Virus record (IMG/VR): IMGVR_UViG_3300027728_001610
Location: 30,809-94,808 of that record
DNA: 64,000 nucleotides
Source of the DNA: a virus
Direction: 5' to 3' (one strand)
In this document: positions 12,476-63,180 of the stretch, piece by piece
Position numbering within the stretch: the first letter of the stretch is position 1
How the letters are laid out: every line of letters starts with the position of its first letter
Notes under the pieces: model-generated
Told to the model about the DNA's origin: nothing
The model's database searches: none
Seen by the model: the letters and a program-made list of their open reading frames with translations, nothing else
Position numbers and translations under genes: made by a program

Positions 12476-14155
12476 TCAACAAAATAATGTATATTTGTAT
12501 AATCCGCAATTCCATATTCTATCAAAACCTAGTTCCTTAGTTAGTTCAGATTCTGTTTTAGAAAAATCCATGTTAGGATATTTCTTTTTTAGGTTATTTT
12601 TTCCCATAGAAAATTTATGAAATCTTTTATATTTATTAATCTTTGAGTTGTAATAGTAATATGTCGGTTTTACTACTGAAGTTAGTTCAAATCCTAATTT
12701 TGTATAAAGATTATTATCGGGATTGATTGTCCACCTTCTATCGGCGAAACTAACAACACTTTTTGGATTATATTCTTTAATAAATGTTTTTAAAATTTTT
12801 GATGCTAACCCACTTATTATATAGTCAGGATTAGTGGCGAATCTTGATAATTCAAATTCATCTGTTTGTGATTTGGTCATATTTCTTTTACGATTAAAAG
12901 TCATTATACCAACCATTATGTTGTTATAAAACGCACCGTAGAAAATATCTGATTTATCATTGCCCTGTATATGAAAATTGGTAAGAAATGAGTTTTTAAA
13001 ATTTTTTGTTATTTTTTGAATTTTCACATTTCTCCCACCAATTCTTATACCTTCACTTTTATTCAAAATGTGTTTTATTTTAGTTTTTGTGAGTTCTTTA
13101 TTAATTATCCATTCATCTTCATATATATGATATAATTCATACCCCATAATAGAACAATCAATAGTTTTATTAAGATGATATTGTGAGGTTTTACCCATTT
13201 TCTCGGTGTGATAATACAAACCATTATATTCAAAACAAACTTTTAGTTCTGGAATTACTATATCAATTTCTTTACCATTCAGTATTTTCCTATCCTTTCC
13301 TTTGACTACCCCAAACCCCAAACTTTCCAAAAACTCTTTTATTTCTATTTCACCCTTTGATGTCCAAGTAGGTTCTAAATATTGATTTAATATTTTTGTT
13401 GAGTCACTTAATTTTTTTGACGTAGATTTTGATACGATTTTTGAGTTTGGGTAATTTAGTTTATATTCTTCAATACTGATATTATGTAAATTTTTAAGGT
13501 GAGTATTAGTAATGGATTTCATTTTTTCACCACACAACACACATGTTACAAAATTTTCTTTATTATCTAATAACTCTTTTTTTATAATTTTTTTATGATG
13601 TATTTTTTCAGTCGGAAAATTACTTAGATAATCGTCAATTGTTATATTATGAATATTATTTACGTGTTGCTCAAAACATCCAGTTTTATTTTTAATATCA
13701 GTTGTTTCCCATTCACATAAAGAACATTTACGAGTTATTTTTTTTTCTTGTGGGATTATATCAAAGTATTCTTCATACCACTTCTTACCGTTTTCTATTT
13801 CATATTTTTTTCTTTGGTAATTATTTTGAGGAATATTAATATCTCCGTAATTTTCTAATATATGTTTTGTTAATTTACCCGATAAATTATTAGGATCATT
13901 TATCTTGATGTTTGTTTTCTTACAAATGGCAACATAACTACAATTTTCAGATTCGTATTTTTTTGTTTTTACAATTTTTAAATTTACATTATTTTTGATT
14001 TGACCACCTTTCGGTTTAATTTCTATATTATTTTCCTTTAATATGGAACTTATCTTTTTATGTCCTACTTTAAAATGTTTTGCAATTTGGTGTGTTCCGA
14101 CCCCACCATCTTGATACATTTTAATCACATCATCTATGTAAATTTGATTCTTCAT
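12476..14155 (-). CDS. Multidomain homing-type endonuclease (HTH, two Zn fingers, Vsr-like nuclease, GNAT-like C-terminus)
   Basis: 559 residues. Residues ~1-45 look like a resolvase-type helix-turn-helix (GVGTHQIAKHFKVGHKKISS). Two C2H2-like fingers follow (CSLCEWETTD...HVNNIH and CVLCGEKMKS...HLKNLH). The nuclease region has KEIDIVIPELKVCFEYNG with YYH shortly after, and an ELYHIYEDEW strand, as in EDxHD homing endonucleases. The C-terminal ~180 residues resemble an acetyltransferase-like fold (DIFYGAFYNNIMVGIMTF, SFADRRW, LYTKLGFEL), a domain often fused to such nucleases. It sits downstream of the major capsid gene next to an HNH relic, an obvious mobile-gene site. Confidence 0.75.
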   Translation of the reverse strand: MKNQIYIDDVIKMYQDGGVGTHQIAKHFKVGHKKISSILKENNIEIKPKGGQIKNNVNLKIVKTKKYESENCSYVAICKKTNIKINDPNNLSGKLTKHILENYGDINIPQNNYQRKKYEIENGKKWYEEYFDIIPQEKKITRKCSLCEWETTDIKNKTGCFEQHVNNIHNITIDDYLSNFPTEKIHHKKIIKKELLDNKENFVTCVLCGEKMKSITNTHLKNLHNISIEEYKLNYPNSKIVSKSTSKKLSDSTKILNQYLEPTWTSKGEIEIKEFLESLGFGVVKGKDRKILNGKEIDIVIPELKVCFEYNGLYYHTEKMGKTSQYHLNKTIDCSIMGYELYHIYEDEWIINKELTKTKIKHILNKSEGIRIGGRNVKIQKITKNFKNSFLTNFHIQGNDKSDIFYGAFYNNIMVGIMTFNRKRNMTKSQTDEFELSRFATNPDYIISGLASKILKTFIKEYNPKSVVSFADRRWTINPDNNLYTKLGFELTSVVKPTYYYYNSKINKYKRFHKFSMGKNNLKKKYPNMDFSKTESELTKELGFDRIWNCGLYKYTLFC

Positions 14156-14262: not shown

Positions 14263-16176
14263 TTATCTCAATTCTCTTAAGTCGAATGTTCTAACACCAT
14301 CTACGGTAATTCTTCCGTAGAAACGGTTATTTACCATCTTTTTCGCGTATCTGGTCATAATACCTTTGATTGGCGTAAAGTTGAATGGGTTATACATTGT
14401 AGGTGTTAATTGTAGAGGAACATACGGTGCGTAAATGTAACCTGTGTCTAACAATGATGTTCCTTTGTGTCCGATCAAAACTTGGTTTGGTGGGAAGTAA
14501 GGGTCACGGTAAACTTGGTAACGACCTGATAATGTTCCAACTCTTTCAATACCCATGTTGTATTGGTCTTGATCTGGAGCTGCGTTAGATACGTGGAAGT
14601 ACTCTAAGTCATCAAAGATTGCAGAAACCTCAGAAGAAACAACGATCCAGTTAGCACCACCTCTCAAAGTAGATTTGTGGATTTGTGCTGACAATTGGTT
14701 AATCGCTGTAATCAAAGTTTGGTTCCAGTCTTTTTGAGTGTAAGATGTAGTAGCGTTAATTCTTCTCCATCCGTTGTAGTCCCAACGTAATTGCCATGCT
14801 GCACCTTTACGTAAGTCACGAAGGATCTCACGGTCAATCTCAGCTGCTACTTGTTCTGACAACAATGCTGTCAATTCAGCTTCAGCGTCGATGTTATGGA
14901 ATGCAGCAACGTCTTGTGCTAATTCAGGAGACCATTGTGCTCTTAGTTTTCTTTCTGTAACAGATACAGTTACTGACTCAAGGTCAAAAGAAACCTCACC
15001 AATTTGGTCTTCAAATTCCATCTCAGCATATCTTCTATACCAAGCTAAAAATGAACCACCTGATGTTCCTGAATAGATAGTAGTTCCTGTGTAACCATCT
15101 AATGATGTTGCGTCACAATCAGCACATACTGGACAAGATAAATCTACTTCTAAATAGATACAACCATCTTGAGAACAAATGTTGTTGTAGTTTCCACCGT
15201 CACCAGTGTTTGTACCTGTCGCATTACCTGAGTTACCAAATACAGTTGCCGTGTTAGTACTTGTAGGTGTTACAATACCTTGACCATAGATTTGTGTAAC
15301 AACTCTAAATAATAGAGGAACAAATACGCTTTGACCATTATAAGTACTTGTAAATACATTACAAGGTGTAGTTTCTGCAGAAATTGCTGATGTACCATAA
15401 ATTCTTAAATCAGAAAGGAAAGATTCTGTATCCATTTCATTTCCATCAGGACCGATAAGTTTTCCAGTACCTGCGTTAGCAAAACCACAAAGTTTCATGA
15501 TAACTTTTCTTGTGTTTCCTGAGTACGATGTTAAAGGTGCATTAACTAAGCTACTACCAGCCCATACTTGTACAGTTGTGTTTGCTGTAACTGCAGTCCA
15601 TTTACCTTTAGAGTAGTCAAACAACCCTGGAGGATCTAAAGATGCCTCATTTCCTTCATAGAACAAGTCATACAAGTCTTTTTTGTATGAATATGGTCCT
15701 GATGGTGGATAACCAGCACCTACATCTGTCGGTCCATTAGGAGATCCAATTGGTGCGTAGTGCTCACCACCCGCTGATCCGTTATTTGGTGTTGAGTTAG
15801 GATAAAGATTTGCATATTCTGAAGATGCGTTTGAATATCCTTGGATTCTTGGTACAAAGAAGAACAATTTACCAATTGGTAAGTTCATTGCTTGTACAGA
15901 TACGATGTCGTTAGCCAACAATTTAGAGAATACACGTCTCACGATTGGGAAAACAACTGTTTCAAATGCTCCGTTAGAAGAACCATCTGAAGTTGCTTCG
16001 TTAATCAAGAAAGATGCTTGGTTCTCATATAATTGAGCTACGTTTTCTTTTAGGTGGCCTTTAAGACCTTCAAGGAACCCTAATCTGTCCCATTTGTTAA
16101 TAGTGTCTTCTTTGATAACTTTAAGGTGTTTTAACCCGATGTTACCTACAAGACCTGATTCTAATAATGCTCCCAT
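14263..16176 (-). CDS. Major capsid protein (T4 gp23-like)
   Basis: 637 residues, somewhat longer than T4 gp23. The N-terminal 60 residues form a helical propeptide ending ENQASFLINE followed by ATSDG. This mirrors the gp23 maturation site (SFLTE then A), so cleavage after E60 by the phage prohead protease is expected. Downstream features fit HK97-fold T4-type capsids: FPIVRRVFSKLLANDIVSVQ near the start of the mature protein, and ELAQDVAAFHNIDAEAELT and RYAKKMVNNRFYGRITVDG later. The order protease, scaffold, capsid on this strand matches T4. Its codon usage is cleaner and C-richer than neighbours, as expected for a highly expressed gene. Confidence 0.92.
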   Translation of the reverse strand: MGALLESGLVGNIGLKHLKVIKEDTINKWDRLGFLEGLKGHLKENVAQLYENQASFLINEATSDGSSNGAFETVVFPIVRRVFSKLLANDIVSVQAMNLPIGKLFFFVPRIQGYSNASSEYANLYPNSTPNNGSAGGEHYAPIGSPNGPTDVGAGYPPSGPYSYKKDLYDLFYEGNEASLDPPGLFDYSKGKWTAVTANTTVQVWAGSSLVNAPLTSYSGNTRKVIMKLCGFANAGTGKLIGPDGNEMDTESFLSDLRIYGTSAISAETTPCNVFTSTYNGQSVFVPLLFRVVTQIYGQGIVTPTSTNTATVFGNSGNATGTNTGDGGNYNNICSQDGCIYLEVDLSCPVCADCDATSLDGYTGTTIYSGTSGGSFLAWYRRYAEMEFEDQIGEVSFDLESVTVSVTERKLRAQWSPELAQDVAAFHNIDAEAELTALLSEQVAAEIDREILRDLRKGAAWQLRWDYNGWRRINATTSYTQKDWNQTLITAINQLSAQIHKSTLRGGANWIVVSSEVSAIFDDLEYFHVSNAAPDQDQYNMGIERVGTLSGRYQVYRDPYFPPNQVLIGHKGTSLLDTGYIYAPYVPLQLTPTMYNPFNFTPIKGIMTRYAKKMVNNRFYGRITVDGVRTFDLRELR

Positions 16177-16202: not shown

Positions 16203-17621
16203 TTATTTTATTTTTGTCATCAAATCCTTCATTCTTAAAAATTGTGGATTTTCATACGTTTTTGATTCAATTAAATTAGATGATGAACCTGTTGATACAG
16301 ATTTATTCACAGTTCTTTCAATTGATTCGTTTATTGAGTTTTCTTTACTTACACCATTTCCTAATTCATTTTTAATGGCTTTGTATAGATTTTTCGATTC
16401 TTTCAAAGATTCAACATTATCAAATCTTCTTAAGATGTTTATTTTTTCTTGTTTTGTGGTTGAATGTTCAGTAAATAATCTTGTAGAGTAAGCCAAGTTA
16501 GAATTAAAAACAGCAACTTCATTTAACTTTGTTCTAAACACATCAAGAGCTTTTCTGTATTCTTCGTTTTTCTCTCTCAATGAGTTTACTTCAGTAGATT
16601 CAGAAATTTTAAATGGATTGTATTCATAATTTCTGTTGTTTGTTCTTGCTTTTCTTAAACCTCTACTATTATTTTTAGATCCATTACCATAAGTTCTTGA
16701 AGCTTCTTTCGTCTCAACTTTTTTCATAGATCCTTTTTCCATATTCATACCTTCTTTATATTCAAATTTGGCTTTTCCTGTTCCCATGGCTTTAGTTCCT
16801 TTTCCAAAAGCTTCTTTTCTTTTGGTATTGAAACCTCCGTTCATGTTAGGTTTTTTATCGTAATTGAATTTAGGACCTTTTCCGATTCCAACACCTTTTT
16901 CTTTAATGGCTTTTTTAACGGATTCCATAACTGAGTCAAAATTTTCGTAATCCATTTCCATCATTTCCATGTCATCCATTTCCATCATTTCCATGTCATC
17001 CATTTCCATCATTTCCATGTCATCCATTTCCATCATTTCCATGTCATCCATTTCCATCATGTCATCTTCTTCGTCCATTTCAATTTCATACATAGTTTCC
17101 ATGTATTCGTCTTCAATGTCATCTTCTTCGTCCATTTCAATTTCATACATAGTTTCCGTGTCTTCTTCAGATTCACCTAATTGGATCATGTATTCGTTAT
17201 CACCGTCAGTAAGATGAATATTTTCACCTTCTTTTTTCACAACGATTCCGTCTTCATCACCCATTGCTTTGAATACTCTTAAAACTTCTTCGTCTGACGC
17301 TCCCGTCATGTCAATAGTTTCTTCATCATCGATTTCAGTTTCGTCGTCCATTTCAGTTTCGTCATCAATTTCAGTTTCGTCATCAATTTCAGTTTCGTCA
17401 TCAATTTCAGTTTCGTCATCAATTTCAGTTTCGTCATCAATTGACAGTTCTTCATCCTCAATCTCTTCTTCATCTTGTTCTCTAAGAGATTCTTTTACTA
17501 GTTGTCTGATTTCTTCACTCATTGTAGATTGAAGTATTCCTTTTGCATTTTCTTGTAGAGTCTCCTCCAAATTCTTGATTTGAAAAAGAGCGTCTGCTAC
17601 TACATTTTTGTTATTTGTCAT
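16203..17621 (-). CDS. Prohead core/scaffold protein (gp22-like) with acidic repeats
   Basis: 472 residues. The N-terminal region is followed by two low-complexity acidic blocks: ~6 copies of ETEIDD and later ~4 copies of DMEMMEMD. A basic Gly/Lys/Asn stretch follows. The C-terminal ~120 residues (EYRKALDVFRTKLNEVAVFN, then SNLAYSTRLFTEHSTTKQEK and INILRRFDNV) form a well-conserved-looking helical module of T4-type core proteins. Position between protease and capsid genes matches T4 gene 22. Several (I/L)-x-E sites would allow the core to be degraded during maturation. Confidence 0.75.
   Translation of the reverse strand: MTNNKNVVADALFQIKNLEETLQENAKGILQSTMSEEIRQLVKESLREQDEEEIEDEELSIDDETEIDDETEIDDETEIDDETEIDDETEMDDETEIDDEETIDMTGASDEEVLRVFKAMGDEDGIVVKKEGENIHLTDGDNEYMIQLGESEEDTETMYEIEMDEEDDIEDEYMETMYEIEMDEEDDMMEMDDMEMMEMDDMEMMEMDDMEMMEMDDMEMMEMDYENFDSVMESVKKAIKEKGVGIGKGPKFNYDKKPNMNGGFNTKRKEAFGKGTKAMGTGKAKFEYKEGMNMEKGSMKKVETKEASRTYGNGSKNNSRGLRKARTNNRNYEYNPFKISESTEVNSLREKNEEYRKALDVFRTKLNEVAVFNSNLAYSTRLFTEHSTTKQEKINILRRFDNVESLKESKNLYKAIKNELGNGVSKENSINESIERTVNKSVSTGSSSNLIESKTYENPQFLRMKDLMTKIK
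16953..17062. repeat. 24-bp tandem repeats inside the scaffold gene
   Basis: About four near-identical 24-bp units encode DMEMMEMD on the minus strand. Nucleotide identity between units is almost complete, which suggests recent expansion or slippage rather than old protein repeats. Confidence 0.8.
17326..17442. repeat. 18-bp tandem repeats inside the scaffold gene
   Basis: Six near-identical 18-bp units encode ETEIDD on the minus strand, a second independent acidic repeat block in the same gene. Confidence 0.8.
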
Positions 17622-17970: not shown

Positions 17971-18699
17971 TTATTTATTCAAATAATCGGATAATCTATT
18001 CATTAAGTCAAGTGATTTATTACCGTTTTCACCAACATGTCTTTCGGCGTTCATTTTTTTCTCCTCATCTAAGTTCTCTTCAAATTTAGATCTATCATCT
18101 TTATCTGTGAATAAATAAGCTCCTGGCGTTGATGGAGATGACACTAGGTCAAAACAAATTAATTCAAAATCATCTTGGACTTCATTTTGTTCTCCCACTT
18201 TTTTAAGTGATCCCACACCACGAGAAGAAATACCTAATGTCACACCTTGTCTTAAGTAGTTTGCTGCTAAATCACCTTTGGTTGAAACAATTCCTCTTTC
18301 GTGAAACCCTGGACTTGTAAGTAATTTTAATTTACCTAAAAGTACTGGACCTTCCCACCAAATGTCGGTAATTGCGTGTGATACTCTATCTAAGTCAATT
18401 AATGATGATTCAGGGTGATTTAACTCAGATAGAGCCGTTCCTTTTTGAATCATTTTTTTATAATTTTCAGATTCACGCTTTAATATCTTTTCAGGATAAA
18501 TCCTTCCGTTTCTATTTGGGGTGTTGTATTTTTGAAGAACAGCATAGAACTCAAATGGTTTTGAGTGATCTAACATATCACGATTTTCTCTAATCATTGA
18601 TAAGTTTCTTCTATCATTTGGATCAATGTATCCCGAGTCATACTCAACAAGGATCCCCTTTCCTGAATCTCTTGGTCCTAATATTTTTAAATTTTCCAT
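17971..18699 (-). CDS. Prohead maturation protease (T4 gp21-like, S78/U9 fold)
   Basis: 242 residues with the herpesvirus/T4 protease pattern. The motif YNTPNRNGRIYPEKILKRE is typical of gp21. The catalytic His is probably in ALSELNHPESS and the nucleophile Ser in LGISSRGVGS. A further conserved segment is FDLVSSPSTPGAY. It would trim the capsid protein, the core and any leader-bearing internal proteins. T4 gp21 cuts after (L/I)-x-E, which matches the sites seen in the capsid protein and in about fifteen leaders in this window. Gene order (portal, protease, scaffold, capsid) supports the call. Confidence 0.9.
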   Translation of the reverse strand: MENLKILGPRDSGKGILVEYDSGYIDPNDRRNLSMIRENRDMLDHSKPFEFYAVLQKYNTPNRNGRIYPEKILKRESENYKKMIQKGTALSELNHPESSLIDLDRVSHAITDIWWEGPVLLGKLKLLTSPGFHERGIVSTKGDLAANYLRQGVTLGISSRGVGSLKKVGEQNEVQDDFELICFDLVSSPSTPGAYLFTDKDDRSKFEENLDEEKKMNAERHVGENGNKSLDLMNRLSDYLNK

Positions 18700-18721: not shown

Positions 18722-19189
18722 TTAAATAGTTTCGGTTTCTTTTTTTATGGGTTTAATATTTCCATTTTTAGTTAAAAAACATTTGAAATATTTGTTCTTG
18801 TTTAAAACATCCCCATACACGCTTTTGATTAGATTTTTTACATGTTTTTTTAATTTTGGTGATTTAAAATCCATAGGTTCTAATAAGAATAAATTTATTT
18901 CTAAATTCATAAATGATTTTTTATTTAGTTGGATCCCGCTTGTTCTTAAATCAAGATCAACAATAAATTTGGTGTCAAAAACGGTTTTATTGATATTATC
19001 CAAAACCGTGTGTTTAACCGATCTTGACATGTTTAATACAACTCGGTTCCAATTTTCTAAGTCTTCTTTTGGTTCAACCCACGTTTGTATATTTATAAAA
19101 ATTGATTTTAAGTTTTGGGAGTCTATTGTCCCATAATGTGATTTAAATGTCCGATACCCTGTTAATTTGGCAGTTTTTCCTTTTTTCAT
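18722..19189 (-). CDS. Hypothetical head-cluster protein (155 aa)
   Basis: No family recognised. The protein is basic with alternating hydrophobic strands (FIVDLDLRTSGIQLNKKSFM) and lies directly upstream of the protease in the head gene cluster. A structural role in head or neck is plausible from position only. Confidence 0.5.
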   Translation of the reverse strand: MKKGKTAKLTGYRTFKSHYGTIDSQNLKSIFINIQTWVEPKEDLENWNRVVLNMSRSVKHTVLDNINKTVFDTKFIVDLDLRTSGIQLNKKSFMNLEINLFLLEPMDFKSPKLKKHVKNLIKSVYGDVLNKNKYFKCFLTKNGNIKPIKKETETI

Positions 19190-19243
19190 ATATTTTTTTC
19201 ATACGCTAATTGTTTATTTTGTTATAATTGTAATCAATTATTA

Positions 19244-19251
19244 TATTTATA
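19244..19251 (+). promoter_or_regulatory. TATTTATA late-type motif
   Basis: TATTTATA on the plus strand, 17 nt upstream of the S21-like ATG at 19269. Confidence 0.5.
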
Positions 19252-19268
19252 TCAACAAAGATGAAATT

Positions 19269-19457
19269 ATGTTAATTGTGGAGGTAAAAAATGGTAATAT
19301 TGAAAAAGCTTTAAAAAACTTAAAAGGTAAAGTAATTAAAACAAAACAAAGCTCAATTCTTTTTGATAAAAAAGAATTTGTAAAACCATCAGTAATTAAA
19401 AGAGACGAAACTAAAAAAGCGATCTACATTCAAAAATTAAAATCTAAAAAAGATTAA
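19269..19457 (+). CDS. rpsU: Ribosomal protein bS21 homologue
   Basis: The 62-residue product starts MLIVEVKNGNIEKALKNLKG, followed by KVIKTKQ, then KEFVKPSVIKRDETKKAIYI. This matches the bS21 layout: V-x-x-G-x-I-x-x-A-L-x-x-hK, then x-F-x-K-P-S-V-x-+-R-x-x-x-+-x-A. It is especially close in form to the Bacteroidetes type (FVKPSVIKR). An upstream in-frame ATG at 19167 would add a long hydrophobic stretch that is not part of S21; the start at 19269 fits the family and the motif. In Bacteroidetes, bS21 helps occlude the anti-Shine-Dalgarno, so a phage copy could alter start-site choice on infected-cell ribosomes. It is the only plus-strand gene within the minus-strand head cluster. Confidence 0.85.
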   Translation: MLIVEVKNGNIEKALKNLKGKVIKTKQSSILFDKKEFVKPSVIKRDETKKAIYIQKLKSKKD

Positions 19458-20167
19458 AAACTTTCGTTAAGTTGTTTTAACTTATAGTAGTTTAATTCTG
19501 AAAACGATTCTGTTTGTAATTTTTCTAATACTTGATCTATTGTTGAAATAGTCTCGGAATTAGACTCATTATTTTTTTGTTTATTTAATTTTGAAATAAC
19601 GCTTTCTTTTTCTGAATTGTAGTTTTCAATCAAAGTTTCTTTTGATGTGTTCAAAATAACTTTTAATTCTTTTTGTTCAGATTCACTCAAAGAAGATATG
19701 AAATTTTTAATGGTTTTGTTTGCAACATTAACCATAGATTTTAAAGGAACTTTGATAATCTCTTTTTCAACATCTTTGGTTGATTTTAAGTTTTCTGAAA
19801 TAATTTTTTTACTTTTAATTTTACTTTCCAAAGTTAAAATATTTGTAGAAAATAAATTATCAATTTCTTTGTATTTGTTTTCACAAACAATATGACCAAC
19901 CCAAGCATTTAATTCTTTAATATGAGTAGGTTTAACTTTATTAATTAAATTTTCGTATGCGGTGATTGATTCGTTAATAAATTCATTCACAACCGACTCA
20001 GACAATCCTTTCTTATCGTTTAATTCGTCATAAAGAAAAAATATTTTTGAAATATTTTTATTTTTTAATACAAGTTGCTCAAAAACAAAAAGATTATTTT
20101 TAAGATTTTCTTTTTTATAAGAATCAACTAACTGAATCTCTATCTTTGATTTTAATTCTCCAAACAT
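19454..20167 (-). CDS. Hypothetical helical head-cluster protein (237 aa)
   Basis: No family recognised. It is almost entirely helical and Lys/Glu/Asn-rich, ending SFSELNYYKLKQLNESF. It overlaps the convergent S21 gene by 4 nt. Position between portal and protease genes suggests a prohead core component comparable in place to the small core proteins of T4 (gp67/gp68), but no sequence evidence links them. Confidence 0.5.
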   Translation of the reverse strand: MFGELKSKIEIQLVDSYKKENLKNNLFVFEQLVLKNKNISKIFFLYDELNDKKGLSESVVNEFINESITAYENLINKVKPTHIKELNAWVGHIVCENKYKEIDNLFSTNILTLESKIKSKKIISENLKSTKDVEKEIIKVPLKSMVNVANKTIKNFISSLSESEQKELKVILNTSKETLIENYNSEKESVISKLNKQKNNESNSETISTIDQVLEKLQTESFSELNYYKLKQLNESF

Positions 20168-20570: not shown

Positions 20571-22370
20571 CTAGTCACCTAAGAGTTTTGACAATTGGTC
20601 GTCCATATCGCCTAAAGAATTATTAATCTTTTGAAAGTCTAAAAATTCATCTTCATCAAAATCATCTTCCATTGATTCTAATATTAATTTATTTTTATCT
20701 TTTTTAATTGATTCAGGAATTGGTGGTTCTCCGCCTGACGGTGGTGGAGGTGCCCCTCCTTCTGCAGGTGGTGCCCCTCCTTCTGCAGGTGGAGATCCAG
20801 CGGAAGATGTTCCTCCTGACACTGGTTGATAAAGTTTATCTACGGTGTTAAAAATACCTGTTTTAGTGATGATTGTTGCGGTATTGTCAAGTTCAGCAGA
20901 AACCGCTCTTTCCATTCTAATTTGTTGTAATTCAAGTTTAATTTCATCATCAGAAAACCCAAATATATGTTTTTTCGCCCAAGTTGCTGATGTTGGCTGA
21001 ATTGATTTTGGAATCTCTGAAACCATATCTTTATATAGAGTTACTTTTTCTTTCCAAACATCAATCATTAATAGATCGGCTTGTTTTGATGGATTTGTAA
21101 GTTGTAATGTAAAGTTTGATAATTCATCTTCAAAACCCATTAAATATAAATGGATAATTGCAATTTTATTCATTTCGGCAATTGCCGATTTTTGAATTCT
21201 GTTGATTGTTCTTGCAAATCTAATATCTAACAACGACAAGTTTTTACCATCACCAACAGGTTCCTCAAACCCTAAATATGCCTTAGGAACACGAAGTGCC
21301 GTTACTAATTTCTTTTGAATGTATTCAATATCAGCAATTTCAGATAAGTTTGCTGCTCCTGGCAAAGTATCAATTGGGCTTACTTGCGTTGCATCACGAA
21401 CAGGAATAAAATAATCTTGATCTACCGCCATTTGATTAAACCTCAAGTCAACATTACCTGTTTTTCTATCAACAACTTGATCTCTTTTAAATTTATTGGC
21501 AACTCTTTGTACATACGCTTCAACATCTTTATCGTCCATATTTCCAACAAATACTTTAAACACCCTTCTCTCAGGTGCTCTTGATGTACGATAGATTAAC
21601 ATCGCATCTTCAGACAAAACTAATTGTTTCCAAATACGACGAGCCTTTTCTAACATTGACGTTCCGTAAGGAAGTTTTCTGTCATCACCTAAAAGTCTAA
21701 AGTGAGCAACCTCCCAAGTATTAAATTCAGCGTCTCTTGCTTTCCACGCAAATTTTAGAGCCTTTCTATTTGTGTTAATTGTCGCTTGAAATGTTCTAGA
21801 GTCAATTCCCCTTTCAAGTCTTTCAATTTCAATATTGGGTAGTTGAAGACATCCTGTCACCCCTTTTTCATGATCCAATTTTAAATAAACAAAATTGTCA
21901 CCATACTTACACATGTTTCTAATCCACATTGGTAAATTGGTGTTGATATCTAAAACATTAACAAATAGATCAACCAATATACTTTTAATTCTTTTTGATT
22001 CTGAATAAACTTGTAATATATATCCGTTTTGATCGGGAGTTGTGGATTCTTCGGCGTAAATGTCTAACGCTGTTGAAATTTCAGGGGTATATTCCATAGA
22101 TTCATAATCGTAGAATGATGCCAACCTTGTTGGTTCATAATAAATCGCTTGGGTGTATAAATTATTTTCAACCTTAGCCCAATTTGTACTTAAATAAAGG
22201 GATTGTTGATTTTGTAATTTGGCCCTTTCATACTCGGCCTTATCTTGTGTTTTTAAAAGTTCTTTTTTGTCTAACTTGTAGTCTGGTTGATCTTGACCTA
22301 ATGTAGAATCAGGACCAAAAGTCTTTGATAACCTTTGCCAAACCGTTAGATTTTGATTATTATTTTCCAT
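20571..22370 (-). CDS. Portal protein (T4 gp20-like)
   Basis: 599 residues, close to T4 gp20 (524) with a longer Pro/Gly-rich tail. Typical features: YYEPTRLASFYDYESMEYTP near residue 80, IYAEESTTPDQNG, MWIRNMCKYGDNFVYL, and the strongly conserved YRTSRAPERRVFKVFVGNM in the central region. KAYLGFEEPVGDGKNLS then FARTINRIQK follow in the wing/stem region. The C-terminal tail contains a run of PPAEGGA repeats and an acidic end. It forms the dodecameric DNA channel and docks the terminase, whose gene lies just upstream. Confidence 0.92.
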   Translation of the reverse strand: MENNNQNLTVWQRLSKTFGPDSTLGQDQPDYKLDKKELLKTQDKAEYERAKLQNQQSLYLSTNWAKVENNLYTQAIYYEPTRLASFYDYESMEYTPEISTALDIYAEESTTPDQNGYILQVYSESKRIKSILVDLFVNVLDINTNLPMWIRNMCKYGDNFVYLKLDHEKGVTGCLQLPNIEIERLERGIDSRTFQATINTNRKALKFAWKARDAEFNTWEVAHFRLLGDDRKLPYGTSMLEKARRIWKQLVLSEDAMLIYRTSRAPERRVFKVFVGNMDDKDVEAYVQRVANKFKRDQVVDRKTGNVDLRFNQMAVDQDYFIPVRDATQVSPIDTLPGAANLSEIADIEYIQKKLVTALRVPKAYLGFEEPVGDGKNLSLLDIRFARTINRIQKSAIAEMNKIAIIHLYLMGFEDELSNFTLQLTNPSKQADLLMIDVWKEKVTLYKDMVSEIPKSIQPTSATWAKKHIFGFSDDEIKLELQQIRMERAVSAELDNTATIITKTGIFNTVDKLYQPVSGGTSSAGSPPAEGGAPPAEGGAPPPPSGGEPPIPESIKKDKNKLILESMEDDFDEDEFLDFQKINNSLGDMDDQLSKLLGD

Positions 22371-22418: not shown

Positions 22419-23216
22419 TTATGGTTTTGGAGCAGTAACAAAAGGAACATCAATTTTGATTTTAAATGGTAAAGTTATAGGTCCAGGTCCTCCATATGAA
22501 AATCCTGTTGTAAAGTATGATGTTGTGGACACAACACAAGGATCAGATCCGTTGGCAAAAGATGTATTTTGAAATACCACAGAATTTCCTGCGTTTCTTA
22601 TTTGTATATATATAGATTGTCCTGTAAATAAACCTATTTGACCAAATGATGTGTAAGTGTTACATTGTTGTATGGTTTGAGTATTACCTAATTTGATCCA
22701 ATTCTGACCTAATGGGAAAGGTTGAGCTGGATTATAAGGACCCACTAAATATGCATACCAAACAGCACATTGCATGGATGTTTGAGGAGATTGTACAGCA
22801 ACTTCAATAGGTAAATACGCATTATAGTTTGGACTTGGTGTTGGTGTAGGTGTGTTTGTCTGTGTAGGTGTTGGTGTAGGTGTAGGTGTGTTTGTCGGTG
22901 TAGGTGTGTTTGTTGGTGTATTAGTCGGAGTGTTTGTCGGAGTGTTTGTCGGTGTGTTAGTCGGTGTATTTGTTGGTGTATTCGTCGGTGTGTTAGTAGG
23001 TGTGTTAGTCGGTGTGTTAGTCGGTGTTATAGATGGGGTGGGTGTTGGAGTTAAAAATGGTAATATTTGTTCAAATAATTCACGGTCAATTGGTGCCGAT
23101 TTTTTATATTTAAAATTTGGTTGGAAAACCTTTTGTCCAATATATTGTTGTCCCGGAACAATAAGTCTAGAACCATTTGCAATTTTTCCTGTTTTTTTTC
23201 TAAAATTTAAACCCAT
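22419..23216 (-). CDS. Putative virion protein with PTNTP repeats (265 aa)
   Basis: After a basic N-terminus ([20 protein letters not shown]) residues ~55-130 are a long Pro/Thr/Asn tandem repeat, followed by a ~135-residue beta-rich domain. No family recognised. The repeat resembles extended linkers in surface-exposed virion proteins. It starts 5 nt after the terminase stop, so it is co-transcribed with packaging genes and may be a head decoration or neck fibre protein. Confidence 0.55.
22846..23048. repeat. PTNTP-encoding tandem repeat
   Basis: About fifteen short units (12 bp, GTNGGTGT-like on the plus strand) encode PTNT on the minus strand inside the gene at 22419-23216. Confidence 0.8.
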
Positions 23217-23220
23217 AACT

Positions 23221-24999
23221 TTATTTCATTAACCCCCCAAATAACCAACCATATTTTTGATAATCATCTCTGGTTGGCCCATTATTTTGAAATCCATATC
23301 TTTCTCTTAACACATTTTCATTGGGAATAGTCGGATTAAATTGAGCTTCTTTCCCAACTGAATCATTATTTACAACAGCCCAAGAATTTATCATAGATTT
23401 TGCTTGTTCGGTTGCCTTTTCTAATTTTGAAAAAGATGATTCCCCAACATAAAGTGCTATTGATATTCCCATAATTAAATCATCGTGTTGACCTTTTTGG
23501 TGATCTGGTCTTCCATTAATATAAACAAATGTGTTCATTTCACTAAACAAACGAACACTTCTTATTTTAAATTTATGTCTAATTGATTCCTCAAAGGCCG
23601 CAATAATCTGAACTCTTTTATTATTAAAGTTTATTCCTGGTATTTTTTCACCACTTCCTTTGTTTGTTGCCCAAAAGTTAAATGCGTCAACACCATCAAT
23701 ATATAAATTTCTAAATCCTAATTCTTGTAGTTTTCTAACCGTTGTAATACCCATACCACCGGTAATATCCACAACCACAAACGCGCTATACATCATACCC
23801 CACTTATAAGCAACTTCGGCTAAAGTATCAGGTGGAATTTTTCCAACATATTCCAAGACTTGTTCTCTGTCATCAAAGTCAATAATTTGAATTGTTGAAT
23901 AATCTTCGCTATCACCACGAGACACGTCAATACCCATAATATATCTATGACCCTCAATTGGTTCTTTCCAAATCCAAAGTGAGTTACCCATAAGTTTTGA
24001 AACTGGATCTAATAAACAATCATTTTTTATTTCTTCAAGTTGTTTGTTGTCAAATACGTTGTCACCTGAACCTAAGAACTCACAATTTAACTCTTGGTTA
24101 ATTTTTCGTTTGTCGTATTTAAGTTTTTTAACCATTTTTTCATACCAAGAAGAACATGGTTTGTATCCCTGTTTAAAAAAATGTTTTAGTTCTTCATAAT
24201 CTCTTTCGTATGGATCTGTATGTGAAAGAGAAATATTTTTTGATTCATCATATTCTTCACGATTTAAAAGATAGTGAACCAAATCTTCTGTTGGGACCAA
24301 ATATAGGTCTTTTGTATATCTTGGGTCTCTATACCAAAACATTTCAGAAATTTTAAATTGGTTCATTCCTTTTAACGCTTGATCGTAAATGTCGTGATAT
24401 ATTGGGTCATATCCGTTTGGTGTTGATATTACAATTACCTTACCACCCGTAGATAGGGACGCCATACAAGCAGCCCAAAAATCACCATCGGCTTCAATAA
24501 ACGCCGCCTCATCAAAAATAAGAATTGTTGGTGTAAATCCACGAAGGGCATCTTTTGATGTTGCAACCGCCTTAACTTCAGATCCATTATTTAACTTATA
24601 GTGTCGTTGTGAATTTTTTTCAACGGCAAATCCCGCACCAACCCAAGAAGGCCATTGATCAACAAACGCCCTAATTTTATTTGCCATCTCCATTGATGTA
24701 TCAAGTTTGTTGGCAATTATTAGAATTTTTTCAGGTTGTGTTTTTTTGGCAAATACCAATCTTTTTGAAATCCAAGCGGCCGTTACGGTTGTTACTCCAG
24801 CTTGACGATATTTTAAGGCAATATTTTCCTCAAACTCCTCGTAGTCATGTAATAATGAAACTTGATCAGGAAATAGTTCCAAAGGAACATATTTTGATAC
24901 GGTATTATCGTATGTTTGTAAATACGATCTAAGTGCGTATGGAGTATCTCTCATACACTTTGCATATTCAATTAAAACTTGTTCTTTAGATAACCCCAT
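23221..24999 (-). CDS. terL: Terminase large subunit (T4 gp17-like)
   Basis: 592 residues, the size of T4 gp17 (610). ATPase domain: adenine-binding region [20 protein letters not shown], Walker A-type loop YRQAGVTTV, Walker [12 protein letters not shown] with the catalytic Glu, and coupling motif ISTPNG. Nuclease domain: [14 protein letters not shown] (first catalytic Asp), a [10 protein letters not shown] segment, and the final [13 protein letters not shown] Asp pair. It packages DNA through the portal. It is the first gene of the head cluster in transcription order, with the late-type motif 4 nt before the start codon. Confidence 0.95.
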
Positions 25000-29745: not shown

Positions 29746-31599
29746 TTATTTTACTTCTTCAAAGTCAACATTTGTAACTTCTTCGTCTGAACTTGTTTCA
29801 TTTGTGGATTCATATAACTTTTGACTAATTGATTGAAATTCATTGTTAATTTCATCCATAAGTTTTTTTACATCATCAATATTTTTTTCATTATGAGCAT
29901 TTTTTAACTTATCAATTTTTGAAGTCAAATTTTGTTGTTCCTCTTCTGATATTTTATCTTTTAAATCATCCAAAGATTTTGAAACTTGAAAAATCATTGA
30001 GTCGGCAGAATTTAATGTGTCAACGTCTTCTTTTAGTTTTTTATCTGTTTCTGCGTTAATTTCAGCCTCTTGTTTCATTTTTTCAATTTCTTCTTTTGAT
30101 AAACCTGATGATGCTTCAATACGAATTGTTTGTTGCTTGTTTGTACCTTTATCAACCGCAGATACATTAATAATACCATTCGCATCAATATCAAAAGTAA
30201 CTTCAATTTGTGGAACACCTCTCATAGCAGGAGGCAATCCATCAAGATGGAATTTACCAATAGTTTTATTATCTTTTGCCATCGCTCTTTCTCCTTGAAC
30301 CACATGAATTTCTACGGTTGGTTGATTATCAACCGCCGTTGAAAATATTTCAGATTTTTTTGTTGGTATTGTTGTATTCGCATTAATTAGTTTAGTGAAT
30401 ACCCCACCCATAGTTTCAATACCTAATGAAAGTGGCGTAACGTCCAATAACAATACGTCTGTAACATCACCTCCTAAAACACCCCCTTGGATTGCAGCTC
30501 CTAAAGCAACAACCTCATCGGGGTTTACACCTTTTGATGGTTCTTTACCAAAGAATTTTTTAACAGCTTCTTGAATTGCTGGAATACGGGTTGACCCACC
30601 AACTAAAATAATTTCATCAATATCTGAAGGTTTTAGTCCCGCATTTTTAAGTGCCGACTCACAAGGTTTAATTGTTCTTTTAACTAAATCTTCAGTTAAT
30701 TGGTCAAACTTTGATTTTGTAATTTTAACAACCAAATGTTTTGGTCCTGTGGCATCTGCCGTTAAATATGGAAGATTAATTTCAGTTTGAGGTGAAGATG
30801 ATAATTCTACTTTAGCTCTTTCTGCAGACTCCTTTAATCTTTGAAGTGCCATTGGGTCTTTTGTAACATCAATTCCTGTATCGTTTTTAAATTCGCTTAC
30901 AAGAAAATCAATAATTACTTGGTCGAAGTCGTCACCACCTAAATGAGTATCACCATCTGTAGATAATACTTCAAAAACTCCATCCCCAAGTTCCAATATA
31001 GAAACATCGTGAGTTCCACCACCACAGTCAAAAACAACAATTTTCATATCTTTAGACATCTTGTCTAATCCGTATGCCAATGCTGCCGCTGTTGGTTCAT
31101 TGATAATTCTTTTAACATTTAGTCCCGCAATTTCACCAGCCTCTTTTGTTGCCTGTCTTTGAGCGTCATTAAAGTATGCAGGTACCGTAATTACAGCGTC
31201 TGTAACTTTTTCACCTAAGTAATCTTCAGCCGTTTGTTTCATTTTTTGTAAAATGGCTGCTGATATTTCTTGTGGGGAATAGGTTCTATTGTCAATTTCT
31301 ACTCTTGGGTTATTTTTTTCATTGACAATCTTATAAGGAACTTTAGAATGTTCACTTTTTGTATCATTAAACGCACTACCCATAAATCTTTTAATTGAGT
31401 AGATTGTTTTTTCTGGATTTGTAACCGCCTGACGTTTAGCAGGGTCTCCAATTTTTCTTTCACCATCTTTGACAAATCCAACAATAGATGGTGTTGTTCT
31501 TTTACCTTCGCTGTTTGTGATTACCACAGGTTCGAGACCCTCCATTACTGCAACGCATGAATTTGTAGTTCCCAAATCCACTCCAATAATTTTTCCCAT
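29746..31599 (-). CDS. dnaK: Hsp70 chaperone DnaK
   Basis: Complete 617-residue Hsp70. It has phosphate motif 1 [17 protein letters not shown] at the N-terminus, phosphate motif 2 [18 protein letters not shown], and the adenosine motif [20 protein letters not shown]. The linker is [19 protein letters not shown]. The substrate-binding domain is of normal bacterial form, ending NVDFEEVK. The C-terminal lid is slightly shorter than in E. coli. The usual LGGGTFD is CGGGTHD here, a mild divergence. No dnaJ or grpE lies nearby, so it would use host cochaperones. It is divergent from a ClpC-like gene. Probable acquisition from a bacterial host. Confidence 0.95.
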
Positions 31600-31775: not shown

Positions 31776-33812
31776 ATGATAGAATCTGCAGACAACAACG
31801 AAAAAGATAAAGCTAAAAAACCTGAAACAGGCTCTAAAACTCTCGTCCTTGATAATTTTTCAAGAGATTTGATTAAGGCGGCCGAAGAAGGTAAATTAGA
31901 CCCAATAATTGGTAGAGAGCAAGAAATAAATAGAATTGCCCAAATTCTATCAAGAAGAAAGAAAAATAACCCAATTATTATTGGTGAACCTGGTTGTGGA
32001 AAAACTGCAATTGTAGAAGGATTGGCTAAAAAAATATTTGAGGGGGATTGTCCTCAAAACCTTGTTGGTAAAAGAATTGTTTCTTTAGATTTAACTTCAG
32101 TAGTTGCAGGAACAAAATACAGAGGTCAGTTTGAGGAAAGAATGAAAGTGATAATTGAAGAATTGTACGCAAATCCTGATATTATTATCTTTATTGATGA
32201 AATCCACACTATGATTGGAGCAGGTAACGCTTCAGGTTCTATGGATGCATCAAACATATTTAAACCCGCTCTTTCAAGAGGTGAAATACAATGCATTGGT
32301 GCAACGACCTTAGAAGAATATAGAAAAAATATTGAAAAAGATGGGGCATTAGAAAGAAGATTTCAAAAAGTAGTTGTTGACCCATCAACAAAAGAAGAAA
32401 CATTAGAAATATTAAAACAATCAAAAGACCGATATGAAAAACATCATAAAGTAAAATATAGTGAAGACATTTTAAAACTTTGTGTTGAGTTGGCAGATAG
32501 ATACATCACAGACAGAGAATTTCCCGATAAGGCTTTTGATATTATTGATGAGGTTGGAGCAAGAAGTCAGGTTGAAATAAAACTTCCTGAAGTTATTGAA
32601 AAACTAAAAAAAGAAGCTCAAGAAATAAAATCTTTGAAAATTGAAGTAATCAATAAACAAAAATATGAAGAAGCCGCAGATTTAAGAGATAGGGAAAGAA
32701 GAGTTTTAGGTGAATTACAAAAAGAAAAAGAAAATTTTGAAAAAAATAGAGACCTATATAGAAAAGAAGTGACGGAAGATATTGTTTATGATGTTACATC
32801 TTTGATGACAAAAATTCCAATTAATAAAATAACAACAGATGAATCAATTCAATTGGCATCTTTAAATGAGGTTTTAAATTCAAAAGTAATTGGTCAAAAT
32901 GAGGCTGTTTCAAAAATTGCAAGAGCAATTCAAAGAAACAAGGTTGGATTAAACGACCCTAAAAAACCAATATTTAGTGGACTTCTAATTGGAAATTCAG
33001 GTGTTGGTAAAACTGAATTGGCAAAACAATTAGCAAAACATATGTTTAATAGCGAAGATGCACTTATTAGATTAGATATGAGTGAATTTTCAGATAAGAT
33101 TGCAACCTCAAAATTAACAGGAACATCACCAGGTTATGTGGGGTATGAGGACGGTTCACCATTTTTAAATAAAATTAAAAACAAACCTTACTCTGTTATT
33201 TTGTTAGACGAAATTGAAAAGGCACATCCTGAAATTTTTAACGTATTTTTACAAATGTTAGATGAAGGGTTTTTAACGGATGGTCACGGAAGAAAAATTA
33301 ACTTCAAAAATTGTATAATTCTAATGACATCTAATGTTGGGACTAGAGTTGTTCAACAGTTCGGTACAGGTGTTGGTTTTTCAACATCACATAAAGAAGA
33401 AACAAAAGATGAAGAAATCAAATCTTTATTGGAAAAAGAATTATTCAAAAAGTTTGCTCCTGAGTTTATTAACAGATTTGATGACATCGTATATTTTAAA
33501 GACCTTAACGATGATGATTTAATGAAAATCCTTAATTTGGAACTTGAAAAATTATACAGTAGAGTTTTGAATTTAGAATATAATGTTCAAGTTGAAGATT
33601 CTTTGAAAAATCATTTAATTAAAGTGGGAACCGATACAAGGTTTGGAGCTCGTATTTTAAAACGGACCGTTCAAAAATGGATTGACGATGCAATTACGGA
33701 AAAAATTCTTTCAGATAACCCAGAAAAAAATTCAACATTTGTGTTATCTTTTGATGAAAAAAATATTAAAACTGAAGTTAAAATTAAAAAACCAACAAAA
33801 AGAAAAAAATAA
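31776..33812 (+). CDS. ClpC/ClpA-like AAA+ unfoldase lacking the N-domain
   Basis: Two AAA+ modules. D1 begins LIKAAEEGKLDPIIGREQEI, with Walker A GEPGCGKTA and Walker B IIIFIDEIHTMIGAG. D2 has Walker A IGNSGVGKTE and Walker B VILLDEIEKAHPEIF. The short middle region contains NKQKYEEAADLRDRERRVLG, a UVR-type motif as in ClpC. GTGVGFSTS offers a VGF loop of the kind that docks to ClpP. The N-terminal Clp repeats are absent: D1 starts about 25 residues after the chosen ATG (31776; an upstream in-frame ATG at 31731 adds an AT-rich stub). It would unfold substrates for host ClpP, with adaptor binding altered by the missing N-domain. Confidence 0.88.
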   Translation: MIESADNNEKDKAKKPETGSKTLVLDNFSRDLIKAAEEGKLDPIIGREQEINRIAQILSRRKKNNPIIIGEPGCGKTAIVEGLAKKIFEGDCPQNLVGKRIVSLDLTSVVAGTKYRGQFEERMKVIIEELYANPDIIIFIDEIHTMIGAGNASGSMDASNIFKPALSRGEIQCIGATTLEEYRKNIEKDGALERRFQKVVVDPSTKEETLEILKQSKDRYEKHHKVKYSEDILKLCVELADRYITDREFPDKAFDIIDEVGARSQVEIKLPEVIEKLKKEAQEIKSLKIEVINKQKYEEAADLRDRERRVLGELQKEKENFEKNRDLYRKEVTEDIVYDVTSLMTKIPINKITTDESIQLASLNEVLNSKVIGQNEAVSKIARAIQRNKVGLNDPKKPIFSGLLIGNSGVGKTELAKQLAKHMFNSEDALIRLDMSEFSDKIATSKLTGTSPGYVGYEDGSPFLNKIKNKPYSVILLDEIEKAHPEIFNVFLQMLDEGFLTDGHGRKINFKNCIILMTSNVGTRVVQQFGTGVGFSTSHKEETKDEEIKSLLEKELFKKFAPEFINRFDDIVYFKDLNDDDLMKILNLELEKLYSRVLNLEYNVQVEDSLKNHLIKVGTDTRFGARILKRTVQKWIDDAITEKILSDNPEKNSTFVLSFDEKNIKTEVKIKKPTKRKK

Positions 33813-36088: not shown

Positions 36089-36492
36089 GGGCCCGACTTG
36101 GATTTGACAGGCGTTGGTTGAATATAAGGAGCATGCCGGGACTGAATTAATCTCGTTAAAAACTGATTCACACTATATACGGCAACGTACTAGATAACCT
36201 TTCAGTGGTTGGTTTAATTGCAACTGAGCAAGTTACTGTAGCTTAATATAAGCACGGAAACGGGAGCCGGTTCACATACGCTTAGCAACAGAAGTGATAA
36301 AAGTGGATTACCATTAAACTATAAATTGAATGGTCCATTGGTTGTTAATTTACGATGGTGAAGAACAAATTAACCTTGTTTTTGGTCAAGACAAAATCAA
36401 ATATTTTGGGGTATTAGAAAATACCAACCTAAGCATGTAGTTGTCTTTTAGACAAGACGAGCTGGACGAGGTTTCGATTACCTCCGGGTCCA
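36089..36492 (+). ncRNA. ssrA: tmRNA (transfer-messenger RNA)
   Basis: The 5' end GGGCCCGACTTGGATTTGAC and the 3' end pair as a 7-bp acceptor stem: GGGCCCG (36089-36095) with CGGGTCC (36485-36491), one G-U. The 3' part has the conserved CTAAGCATGTAG and a T arm GAGG-TTTCGATTA-CCTC. A is the discriminator; CCA is not encoded. GCATGCCGGGA...TCTCG and TGAAT...ATTCA build pseudoknot 1. About 8 nt later GGC (36181) is the best resume codon and opens a frame closing at TAA 36244-36246. The 21-residue tag begins GNVLDNLSVV and ends IATEQVTVA, longer than usual and without the standard LAA end. SmpB must come from the host. Confidence 0.88.
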
Positions 36493-36510
36493 CACTAGAC
36501 ATTTTGTACT

Positions 36511-36549
36511 TCTGGCCATATTTATATGAAAATATTATATATGGCCAGA
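36511..36549 (+). promoter_or_regulatory. Hairpin over the start of the GIY-YIG gene
   Basis: A perfect 11-bp inverted repeat TCTGGCCATAT / ATATGGCCAGA encloses a 17-nt loop holding the ATG at 36526. A second in-frame ATG (36541) lies inside the right arm. A read-through transcript from tmRNA would fold this and could hide the start site, as known for some T4 homing endonuclease genes. It could alternatively act as an imperfect terminator. Confidence 0.6.
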
Positions 36550-40248: not shown

Positions 40249-40722
40249 ATGCAAACATTTCTTCCATACTCAGATTTTAGAAAATCATTAGAGTCATTAG
40301 ATAACAAACGTTTAGGTAAACAACGTGTAGAGGCCTATCAAATTATTTCAGCAATTACAGGTAGACTTCGTAAAGATGGAAAACCATATAAGGGTTGGTT
40401 AAATCACCCTTGTTCTGTTATGTGGAAAGACTATGTTAATTCACTTAAACAATACTATAATGATTGTATTGATGTTTGGGTTGAACGAGGTTTTAAAAAT
40501 ACAATGGAACACGAACATATTGAAGGTGAGTTTGTTTTACCTCATTGGTTGGGTAATGAAGAATTCCACTCTTCACATAGAGCAAATTTATTACGTAAAG
40601 ATTTTGAGTATTATTCTAAACATAATTGGACTGAAGACCCCAATGACCCATATGTGTGGATGGACGATAAGGGTTTGTGGTATAAACAAATTGTTGGAAG
40701 TAAAAAGCGAATTTACTTATAA
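40249..40722 (+). CDS. Pyrimidine-dimer glycosylase-like protein (MSMEG_6728 type)
   Basis: 157 residues starting MQTFLPYSDFRKSLESLDNK then RLGKQRVEAYQI. This is the hallmark of the MSMEG_6728 family, which is related to the Pyr_excise/DenV group of pyrimidine-dimer DNA glycosylases (pattern MQTFLPYPDFxxSxxxLDxKRLGKQRVE). GWLNHPCSVMWKDYVNSLKQ also fits. Host-type promoter element upstream. A role in repair of UV damage is likely from family resemblance; catalytic activity is not proven by the sequence. Confidence 0.7.
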   Translation: MQTFLPYSDFRKSLESLDNKRLGKQRVEAYQIISAITGRLRKDGKPYKGWLNHPCSVMWKDYVNSLKQYYNDCIDVWVERGFKNTMEHEHIEGEFVLPHWLGNEEFHSSHRANLLRKDFEYYSKHNWTEDPNDPYVWMDDKGLWYKQIVGSKKRIYL

Positions 40723-61905: not shown

Positions 61906-63180
61906 ATGTTGTTAGAAAAACTAAAAAATATACCAAAAAGTAGTGGTTGTTACCTTTTTAAAGATAAAAAGGGGCAAATTATCTATGTAGGTAAAGCAAA
62001 ACACCTACCAAATAGGGTGAAATCATACTTTTCTAACAAAAATCACTCAAGTAAGACAAAATTGTTAGTTGAAAACATTGTTGATGTTGATTTTGTGACC
62101 ACTTTGGATGAAAACTCCGCTATTGTTTTAGAAAATGACCTAATTAAATCACACAAACCAAAATACAACATTAAACTTAAAGATGATAGGTCGAAAAAAT
62201 GGTATTTGACACTATCTAATGGTGATTTTCCTCGTGTTGAGGTTAAAAATGATACAAACTTGGATGTGACTCCTCTTTTTGAGGTGTCAAGTAGTAATCT
62301 TGCTTACGAAATTTATGAATTAATCCACGATATTGTGGACTTAAGGTCTTGTTCTTACGAACTAACAAAAGAAAATATTGAAAATGGTAAATTTACCACT
62401 TGTTTAGAGTACCATATGGGTCGGTGTTCAGCCCCTTGTGTGTCAAATATCAATAAGTTTGTATATAAATCATTGATTGATGACCTAAAAGAACTACTTA
62501 CATTCAATTTTGTTTCATATAGAAAAAAATTAACTCGTCAGATGAACACCTTTAGTAAAAATATGGAGTTTGAAAAAGCAAATACCATTAAACACAAGTT
62601 GGAAGCACTTGATAAGTATGAAAAGTGTGTTGAATCCACAAGAATTGGTGGTTATTTGGTAATTGCTGATGAGTTCAAGACTACTTTTAATTTACAAAAC
62701 AACCCGATTGACATAGAAATGTATGATAACTCCCATACTAATGGGGATTGTCAGGTATCTGCACTTGTTAGATACACAAATGGTAAGAAAAACACATCAG
62801 AATACCGTAAGTTCAACATCAAAACCGTTGATGGTCCTGATGATTACGCATCATTTGATGAGGTTTTACGTAGAAGGTTTACAAGATTACTTAAAGAACG
62901 TAAAAAACTACCTGATATGGTTATTATTGATGGTGGTAAAGGTCAATTGGGAATTGCAAAGAAAGTGTTTGACGAACTTTCACTATCTAATCGTATAGAT
63001 TTACTATCTATATCTAAAAATGCTCAACACAGGTCAGATACGTTACATTTTATTGACGGTAGAAGTATAAAATTTGAAAATAAAAAGTTTTTTAACTTAC
63101 TTGCAACAATTCAGGATGAGGTTCACCGATTTGTTATTACATTTCACAGAAAAAAACGTACTAAATCAGTTATTGGATAA
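61906..63180 (+). CDS. uvrC: UvrC-like excision nuclease without HhH domain
   Basis: 424 residues versus ~600 for bacterial UvrC. The N-terminal GIY-YIG nuclease reads SSGCYLFKDKKGQIIYVGKA (GIY is GCY here) with a later LKDDRSKKWYLTL. A Cys-containing region follows (CLEYHMGRCSAPCVS), then a UVR-like helix (KNMEFEKANTIKHKLEALDK) for UvrB contact. The C-terminal RNase H-like nuclease has IEMYDNSHTNG, MVIIDGGKGQLG and DEVHRFVITFHRKKRTKS. It stops right there, so the tandem helix-hairpin-helix DNA-binding domain is absent. It needs host UvrA/UvrB or acts alone on branched DNA. Confidence 0.88.
   Translation: MLLEKLKNIPKSSGCYLFKDKKGQIIYVGKAKHLPNRVKSYFSNKNHSSKTKLLVENIVDVDFVTTLDENSAIVLENDLIKSHKPKYNIKLKDDRSKKWYLTLSNGDFPRVEVKNDTNLDVTPLFEVSSSNLAYEIYELIHDIVDLRSCSYELTKENIENGKFTTCLEYHMGRCSAPCVSNINKFVYKSLIDDLKELLTFNFVSYRKKLTRQMNTFSKNMEFEKANTIKHKLEALDKYEKCVESTRIGGYLVIADEFKTTFNLQNNPIDIEMYDNSHTNGDCQVSALVRYTNGKKNTSEYRKFNIKTVDGPDDYASFDEVLRRRFTRLLKERKKLPDMVIIDGGKGQLGIAKKVFDELSLSNRIDLLSISKNAQHRSDTLHFIDGRSIKFENKKFFNLLATIQDEVHRFVITFHRKKRTKSVIG

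Follow-up and report, generated by a model that had tools for sequence, protein, structure and literature searches.

The stretch of DNA analyzed here, referred to as the window, comprises 64,000 nucleotides of a 94.8-kb fragment from a large virus of Bacteroidota bacteria (IMG/VR record IMGVR_UViG_3300027728_001610, positions 30,809 to 94,808). It contains a T4-type head gene cluster in which the genes for the major capsid protein (MCP), the prohead protease, the portal protein and the large terminase (TerL) are all encoded on the minus strand. A small plus-strand gene for a protein of the bS21 family sits inside this cluster and is transcribed against the head genes, between two conserved genes that we refer to as CN (the bS21 conserved neighbor) and DN. 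Gene calls in the window come from a simple script based on codon scores, and the starts are approximate. The features of the locus are:

14263-16176, minus strand: MCP, gp23 type (245.7 bits)
16203-17621, minus strand: probable scaffold protein with acidic repeats, by its position between protease and MCP
17971-18699, minus strand: T4 gp21-type prohead protease (Peptidase_S77; 80.3 bits)
18722-19189, minus strand: CN, 155 aa, divergent from bS21 and found in all relatives whose sequence covers this position
19190-19268, no strand: divergent intergenic region of 79 nt common to bS21 and CN; bS21 is not preceded by a Shine-Dalgarno (duplex -1.8 kcal/mol)
19243-19250, plus strand: ATATTTAT motif, 18 nt upstream of the bS21 start codon and probably part of a phage promoter for this gene
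19269-19457, plus strand: phage rpsU, encoding a 62-aa bS21-family protein (Pfam PF01165, 7JIL match, three-helix model)
19454-20167, minus strand: DN, 237 aa, convergent with bS21 (stop codons overlap by 4 nt) and conserved in relatives
20571-22370, minus strand: portal protein, gp20 type (261 bits)
23221-24999, minus strand: TerL, T4 type (profile match)

A family search with the scaffold candidate gave nothing convincing, and neither CN nor DN had a family match in Pfam and PHROG searches. The predicted model of CN has an alpha+beta fold (pLDDT 88.5, pTM 0.81), the sole strong structural match of which is an uncharacterized protein of Myoviridae sp. ctPuP5. Matches in the PDB were weak, with a best E of 0.026 in Foldseek and VIA Z scores <= 7.8 to unrelated proteins, and no function was assigned from the fold. 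A tblastn search for CN in annotated phages yielded no useful match, and when profiles of CN and DN were run on the head genes of three phages (Flavobacterium phage immuto, Mel-JY01 and RM378), no convincing homolog appeared. By position and linkage, CN is probably the equivalent of the bS21_CN (fam498) of Chen et al. (2022).

Several other genes of the window deserve mention. A large homing (HNH) endonuclease is encoded directly downstream of the major capsid gene (12476-14155, minus strand), and the ORF between portal and TerL (22419-23216, minus strand) contains a long 10-residue repeat and shows the strongest predicted Shine-Dalgarno (SD) pairing among the window genes (-10.5 kcal/mol). 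A phage-borne tmRNA (36089-36495, plus strand; Rfam 96.9 bits; ARAGORN tag ATEQVTVA) is followed about 30 nt downstream by a homing-endonuclease ORF that starts at 36526. Complete genes for Hsp70/DnaK (29746-31599, minus strand) and a Clp-type AAA ATPase (31776-33812, plus strand) adjoin and form a phage proteostasis set; chaperones and Clp protease have been described in related phages (Chen et al., 2022; PMC9723584).

A diverged bS21 of the Bacteroidia type

The 62-aa translation product of the ORF at 19269-19457 is MLIVEVKNGNIEKALKNLKGKVIKTKQSSILFDKKEFVKPSVIKRDETKKAIYIQKLKSKKD. It matches the Pfam family Ribosomal_S21 (PF01165) with 36.9 bits (E 2.9e-9), above the gathering cut-off of 27, and the S21 family was matched by all 24 aligned members at E <= 0.01. 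The best solved relative is bS21 of F. johnsoniae (7JIL; E 2.3e-9, residues 1-59). These matches uphold the original prediction, which had recognized a bS21 with the Bacteroidetes-type segment FVKPSVIKR (residues 37-45). The predicted model consists of three helices (11-24, 27-33 and 40-61; pLDDT 84.9), the same number as in F. johnsoniae bS21; a Foldseek search with this model returned weak matches only, eight out of nine being chains of mitochondrial ribosomes. The nearest bacterial bS21 proteins share only about 50-57% identity with the window protein, which is closest to bS21 of Flavobacterium. Residues 10-58 also showed a weak match (E 5e-4) to PHROG 913 ("minor head protein"), a group that may contain an S21-like segment or carry a wrong name.

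Against the NCBIfam S21p equivalog model (TIGR00030) the window protein scores 26.7 bits, under the cut-off of 28.95; host bS21 controls reach 52-55, and two phage members score 21.6 (L002, a close relative) and 36.5. Judged by its sequence, the window protein is a clear but diverged homolog of the bS21 family, and with a score under the equivalog cut-off it may not be a full substitute for host bS21.

Residue Y53 of the window protein corresponds to Y54 of F. johnsoniae, the Bacteroidia-specific aromatic residue that stacks on A1534. When aligned phage proteins are compared at this residue, which contacts the anti-Shine-Dalgarno (ASD), the aromatic is retained in 117/117 distinct proteins (Y in 112, H in 3, F in 2, counted as position 54). 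K22, K40, S42 and R46 are likewise invariant across the 117 proteins. Relative to F. johnsoniae, a phage signature is found in helix 1 and the adjoining loop, with T28 replaced by Q in 113/117, G27 by K or R in 114/117 and F23 by V in 102/117. This pattern agrees with that of the bS21 proteins of Bacteroidetes phages, in which the divergent residues were placed near the mRNA side (Chen et al., 2022; PMC9723584). Going by these residues, the phage bS21 of the window belongs to the Bacteroidia type.

In 80 viral contigs fetched by their bS21, gene order and strands are identical wherever the sequence extends, and the spacing between bS21 and CN is conserved at about 80-120 nt. To avoid selection by bS21, a second set of contigs was fetched by the neighboring protease; among the loci with enough flank, bS21 and CN were both present in 69/69 close and 73/73 more distant ones, showing that bS21 is fixed in the clade. 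The location inside the head gene cluster, already part of the original prediction, is thus the same in all relatives examined, on the strand opposite to the head genes. The contigs are partly redundant, and 224 usable loci correspond to 117 distinct bS21 proteins. The gene is under purifying selection, with a median dN/dS of 0.10 (112 pairs). The isolated Flavobacterium phage immuto, which has a head cluster of the T4 type, lacks bS21 in its whole genome and CN among its head genes.

The invariant linkage to CN and the head genes could also indicate that a bS21 homolog has been co-opted in the head cluster for a role outside the ribosome, for instance in RNA binding within the prohead, as a partner of CN, or as a protein packaged in the virion. 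The phylogenies of bS21 and its neighbor match, and packaging has been suggested as a possibility (Chen et al., 2022; PMC9723584); the score under the equivalog cut-off and the weak match to the PHROG "minor head protein" point in the same direction. However, the ASD-stacking aromatic and other positions of the S21 family, needless for a head protein, have been kept, and bS21 is encoded on the strand opposite to all head genes. We regard a non-ribosomal role as improbable.

Upstream motif and the missing Shine-Dalgarno

The ATATTTAT motif is found within 60 nt upstream of 24 of the 63 window genes, including bS21, where 1.9 are expected and the maximum in 300 shuffles was 6. Among the 51 non-divergent window genes, 17 carry it in sense and one in antisense orientation. 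The putative late-type motif that had been noticed before bS21 therefore represents a real upstream element. It does not govern every bS21 gene of the clade, a generalization that was rejected because its count among the distinct phage leaders is only 61 of 107. The T4-type late promoter proper (TATAAATA) is read in the bS21-CN region on the minus strand only, as an overlap of the near-palindromic motif, and since the sense motif in the window phage is ATATTTAT we make no claim of a T4 late promoter. The genes for a pyrimidine-dimer glycosylase (T4 DenV-like; 40249-40722) and UvrC (61906-63180), both on the plus strand, are preceded by a host-type TAnnTTTG instead of ATATTTAT, which suggests that the window phage has two promoter classes.

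The original prediction further held that phage bS21 might favor phage mRNAs, in particular leaderless ones. A spacing of 7 nt or less between motif and start, which fits leaderless transcripts, is seen in only 11 of the 24 motif genes, and bS21, portal and protease are not among them. Moreover, E. coli 61S ribosomes, which are without bS21, translate leaderless mRNA (PMC4929434), so that bS21 is not the recruiter of such messages. The data neither support nor require a preference for phage mRNAs or leaderless ones, and one for leaderless messages is weakly disfavored.

The pairing of leaders was calculated as ViennaRNA duplexes with AUCACCUCCUUUCU, which, from F. johnsoniae, we take to be the 3' tail of Bacteroidota 16S rRNA. 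An extended SD is present in 80/80 Flavobacterium-type host rpsU leaders (-18.4 to -22.8 kcal/mol), against 0/98 distinct phage bS21 leaders (median -0.8, strongest -9.4 kcal/mol). The window bS21 leader, at -1.8 kcal/mol, does not fall below the -13 kcal/mol that marks an autoregulated rpsU (McNutt et al., 2023; PMC9976891). In a wider sample of Bacteroidota, most of the closest rpsU genes are preceded by an SD and at least five are not (L173, L176, L178, L195 and L197). Unlike the window clade, a related bS21 gene of a huge phage (L165 8001-8189; LR756501, 735 kb) has a clear SD, AAAGGAGGATAA ATG, pairing at -12.1 kcal/mol.

The leaders of the window genes as a whole are A-rich, including positions -3 and -6, contain SD-like tetramers in 1/63, and resemble the ordinary host-type SD-less leaders of Bacteroidia. 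This bears on the proposal, also made by Chen et al. (2022; PMC9723584), that ribosomes carrying phage bS21 select phage over host mRNAs by way of the changes Y19L, R21S/G, F23V, G27K and T28Q in helix 1 and the loop. F23, G27 and T28 are changed relative to F. johnsoniae in most of the 117 clade proteins, and the proximity of divergent residues to the mRNA side (PMC9723584) would suit such selectivity. Nevertheless, the promoter motif aside, the window leaders show no feature that is missing from host SD-less leaders, the enrichment of A at -3 and -6 being the host pattern, and no selectivity experiment was found in the literature examined. A selective hijack of the ribosome by phage bS21 is in our opinion doubtful.

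A possible role on the host ribosome

Host rpsU is autoregulated via its extended SD and is translated by ribosomes that lack bS21 (McNutt et al., 2023; PMC9976891). In the same study, SD-less mRNAs initiated poorly in vitro without bS21, SD-less reporters in F. johnsoniae changed little in vivo upon bS21 depletion, and it was suggested that autoregulation serves as a host counter-defence. As the phage bS21 leader is without an extended SD, the phage copy should escape the host feedback loop, an argument that fails if the host of the phage has an rpsU leader without an SD.

Phage bS21, expressed from the phage's own promoter, would most likely join the host 30S subunit, replacing or adding to host bS21. 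Retention of the C-terminal helix together with the aromatic would hold the 16S 3' tail in the platform pocket, and the ribosomes would stay ASD-occluded and fit for the SD-less mRNAs of the phage during the burst of head-protein synthesis. The host loop would place no limit on the synthesis of phage bS21, since the message is without an extended SD. By filling the bS21-free subunits, that is, those translating host rpsU, it may at the same time keep host bS21 synthesis off.

We consider the whole, a Bacteroidia-type phage bS21 that enters the 30S, stands outside the host loop and keeps host rpsU off, the best explanation, with a probability of roughly 0.6. From our own data it draws on the family, residue conservation, synteny, selection, the absence of the SD and the shared upstream motif. 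Published analogies would add to this: in close relatives bS21 is co-transcribed with the structural genes in the late phase (PMC9723584), the bS21 of another phage, a pelagiphage, incorporates into E. coli 70S ribosomes (PMC6375957), and the host gene is autoregulated (PMC9976891). The expression and timing of bS21 in the window phage, its exchange on the host ribosome and the repression of host rpsU are inferred. Points against this explanation are the score under the equivalog cut-off, the small in vivo change of SD-less reporters upon bS21 depletion, the Bacteroidota rpsU leaders without an SD, the SD of the related huge-phage gene, the incomplete occurrence of ATATTTAT among phage leaders and the absence of bS21 from immuto. 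More tentatively, the phage might turn the host feedback loop on the host itself, an SD-free bS21 shutting down host rpsU without a protease and shifting the ribosome pool to the phage form; this is possible, though we would not count on it.

Also against the best explanation, E. coli ribosomes containing the pelagiphage protein lost about 95% of their activity with one reporter (PMC6375957). Host shut-off in place of support for translation could be derived from this result, with phage bS21 poisoning or slowing ribosomes for host messages, or displacing host bS21 to make way for a phage factor. The GFP synthesis of about 5% in that assay (PMC6375957) and the divergence of the window bS21 would be in line with this. 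However, the assay used a foreign host and the E. coli translation system, and a general poison during head assembly would block phage proteins too, so that we hold host shut-off to be unlikely.

Earlier publications (PMC9723584, PMC6375957) already describe the phage bS21 gene and where it lies, and put forward the hypothesis of late substitution. New here is the contrast between phage and host rpsU leaders, which we did not find in the literature examined, a search limited to open-access papers. Of all ribosomal proteins, phages carry bS21 most often. For SD-blind hosts, the leader contrast suggests why a phage would bring its own copy, namely to have bS21 outside host feedback control, an explanation that is simple and open to test, and the leader data put the phage gene outside the autoregulatory loop that McNutt et al. 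viewed as a host counter-defence.

Comparison with known systems

The locus is organized like those of clades a-e, the Bacteroidetes phages of Chen et al. (2022; PMC9723584), and belongs among them in that its bS21 gene runs against those for TerL, portal, protease and MCP. Also common to both are the position of bS21 between two conserved hypothetical genes, the aromatic residue at position 54 and the late-substitution hypothesis. The comparison of leaders, in which the host SD is missing, and the measurement of the shared upstream motif were added here.

F. johnsoniae bS21 (rpsU; 7JIL; PMC9976891) has about 49% identity to the window protein and has in common with it the C-terminal helix and the equivalent of Y54. 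In contrast to the phage gene, which is without an extended SD, F. johnsoniae rpsU has an extended SD and autoregulation, and in helix 1 and the loop the phage protein reads TKQ where the host protein reads TGTV.

The bS21 of Pelagibacter phage HTVC008M (Mizuno et al., 2019; PMC6375957) is likewise phage-encoded, and its entry into the 70S ribosome has been demonstrated. It differs in being of the Alphaproteobacterial type and, according to its authors, was acquired from the Pelagibacter host (PMC6375957). Microcystis phage Mel-JY01 (PP395634; L359 10557-10784) also carries a bS21-family gene inside a head cluster of the T4 type. Its rpsU, however, encodes 75 aa without a tyrosine at 54 and lies on the same strand as the head genes, between protease and scaffold, and is apparently a separate acquisition.
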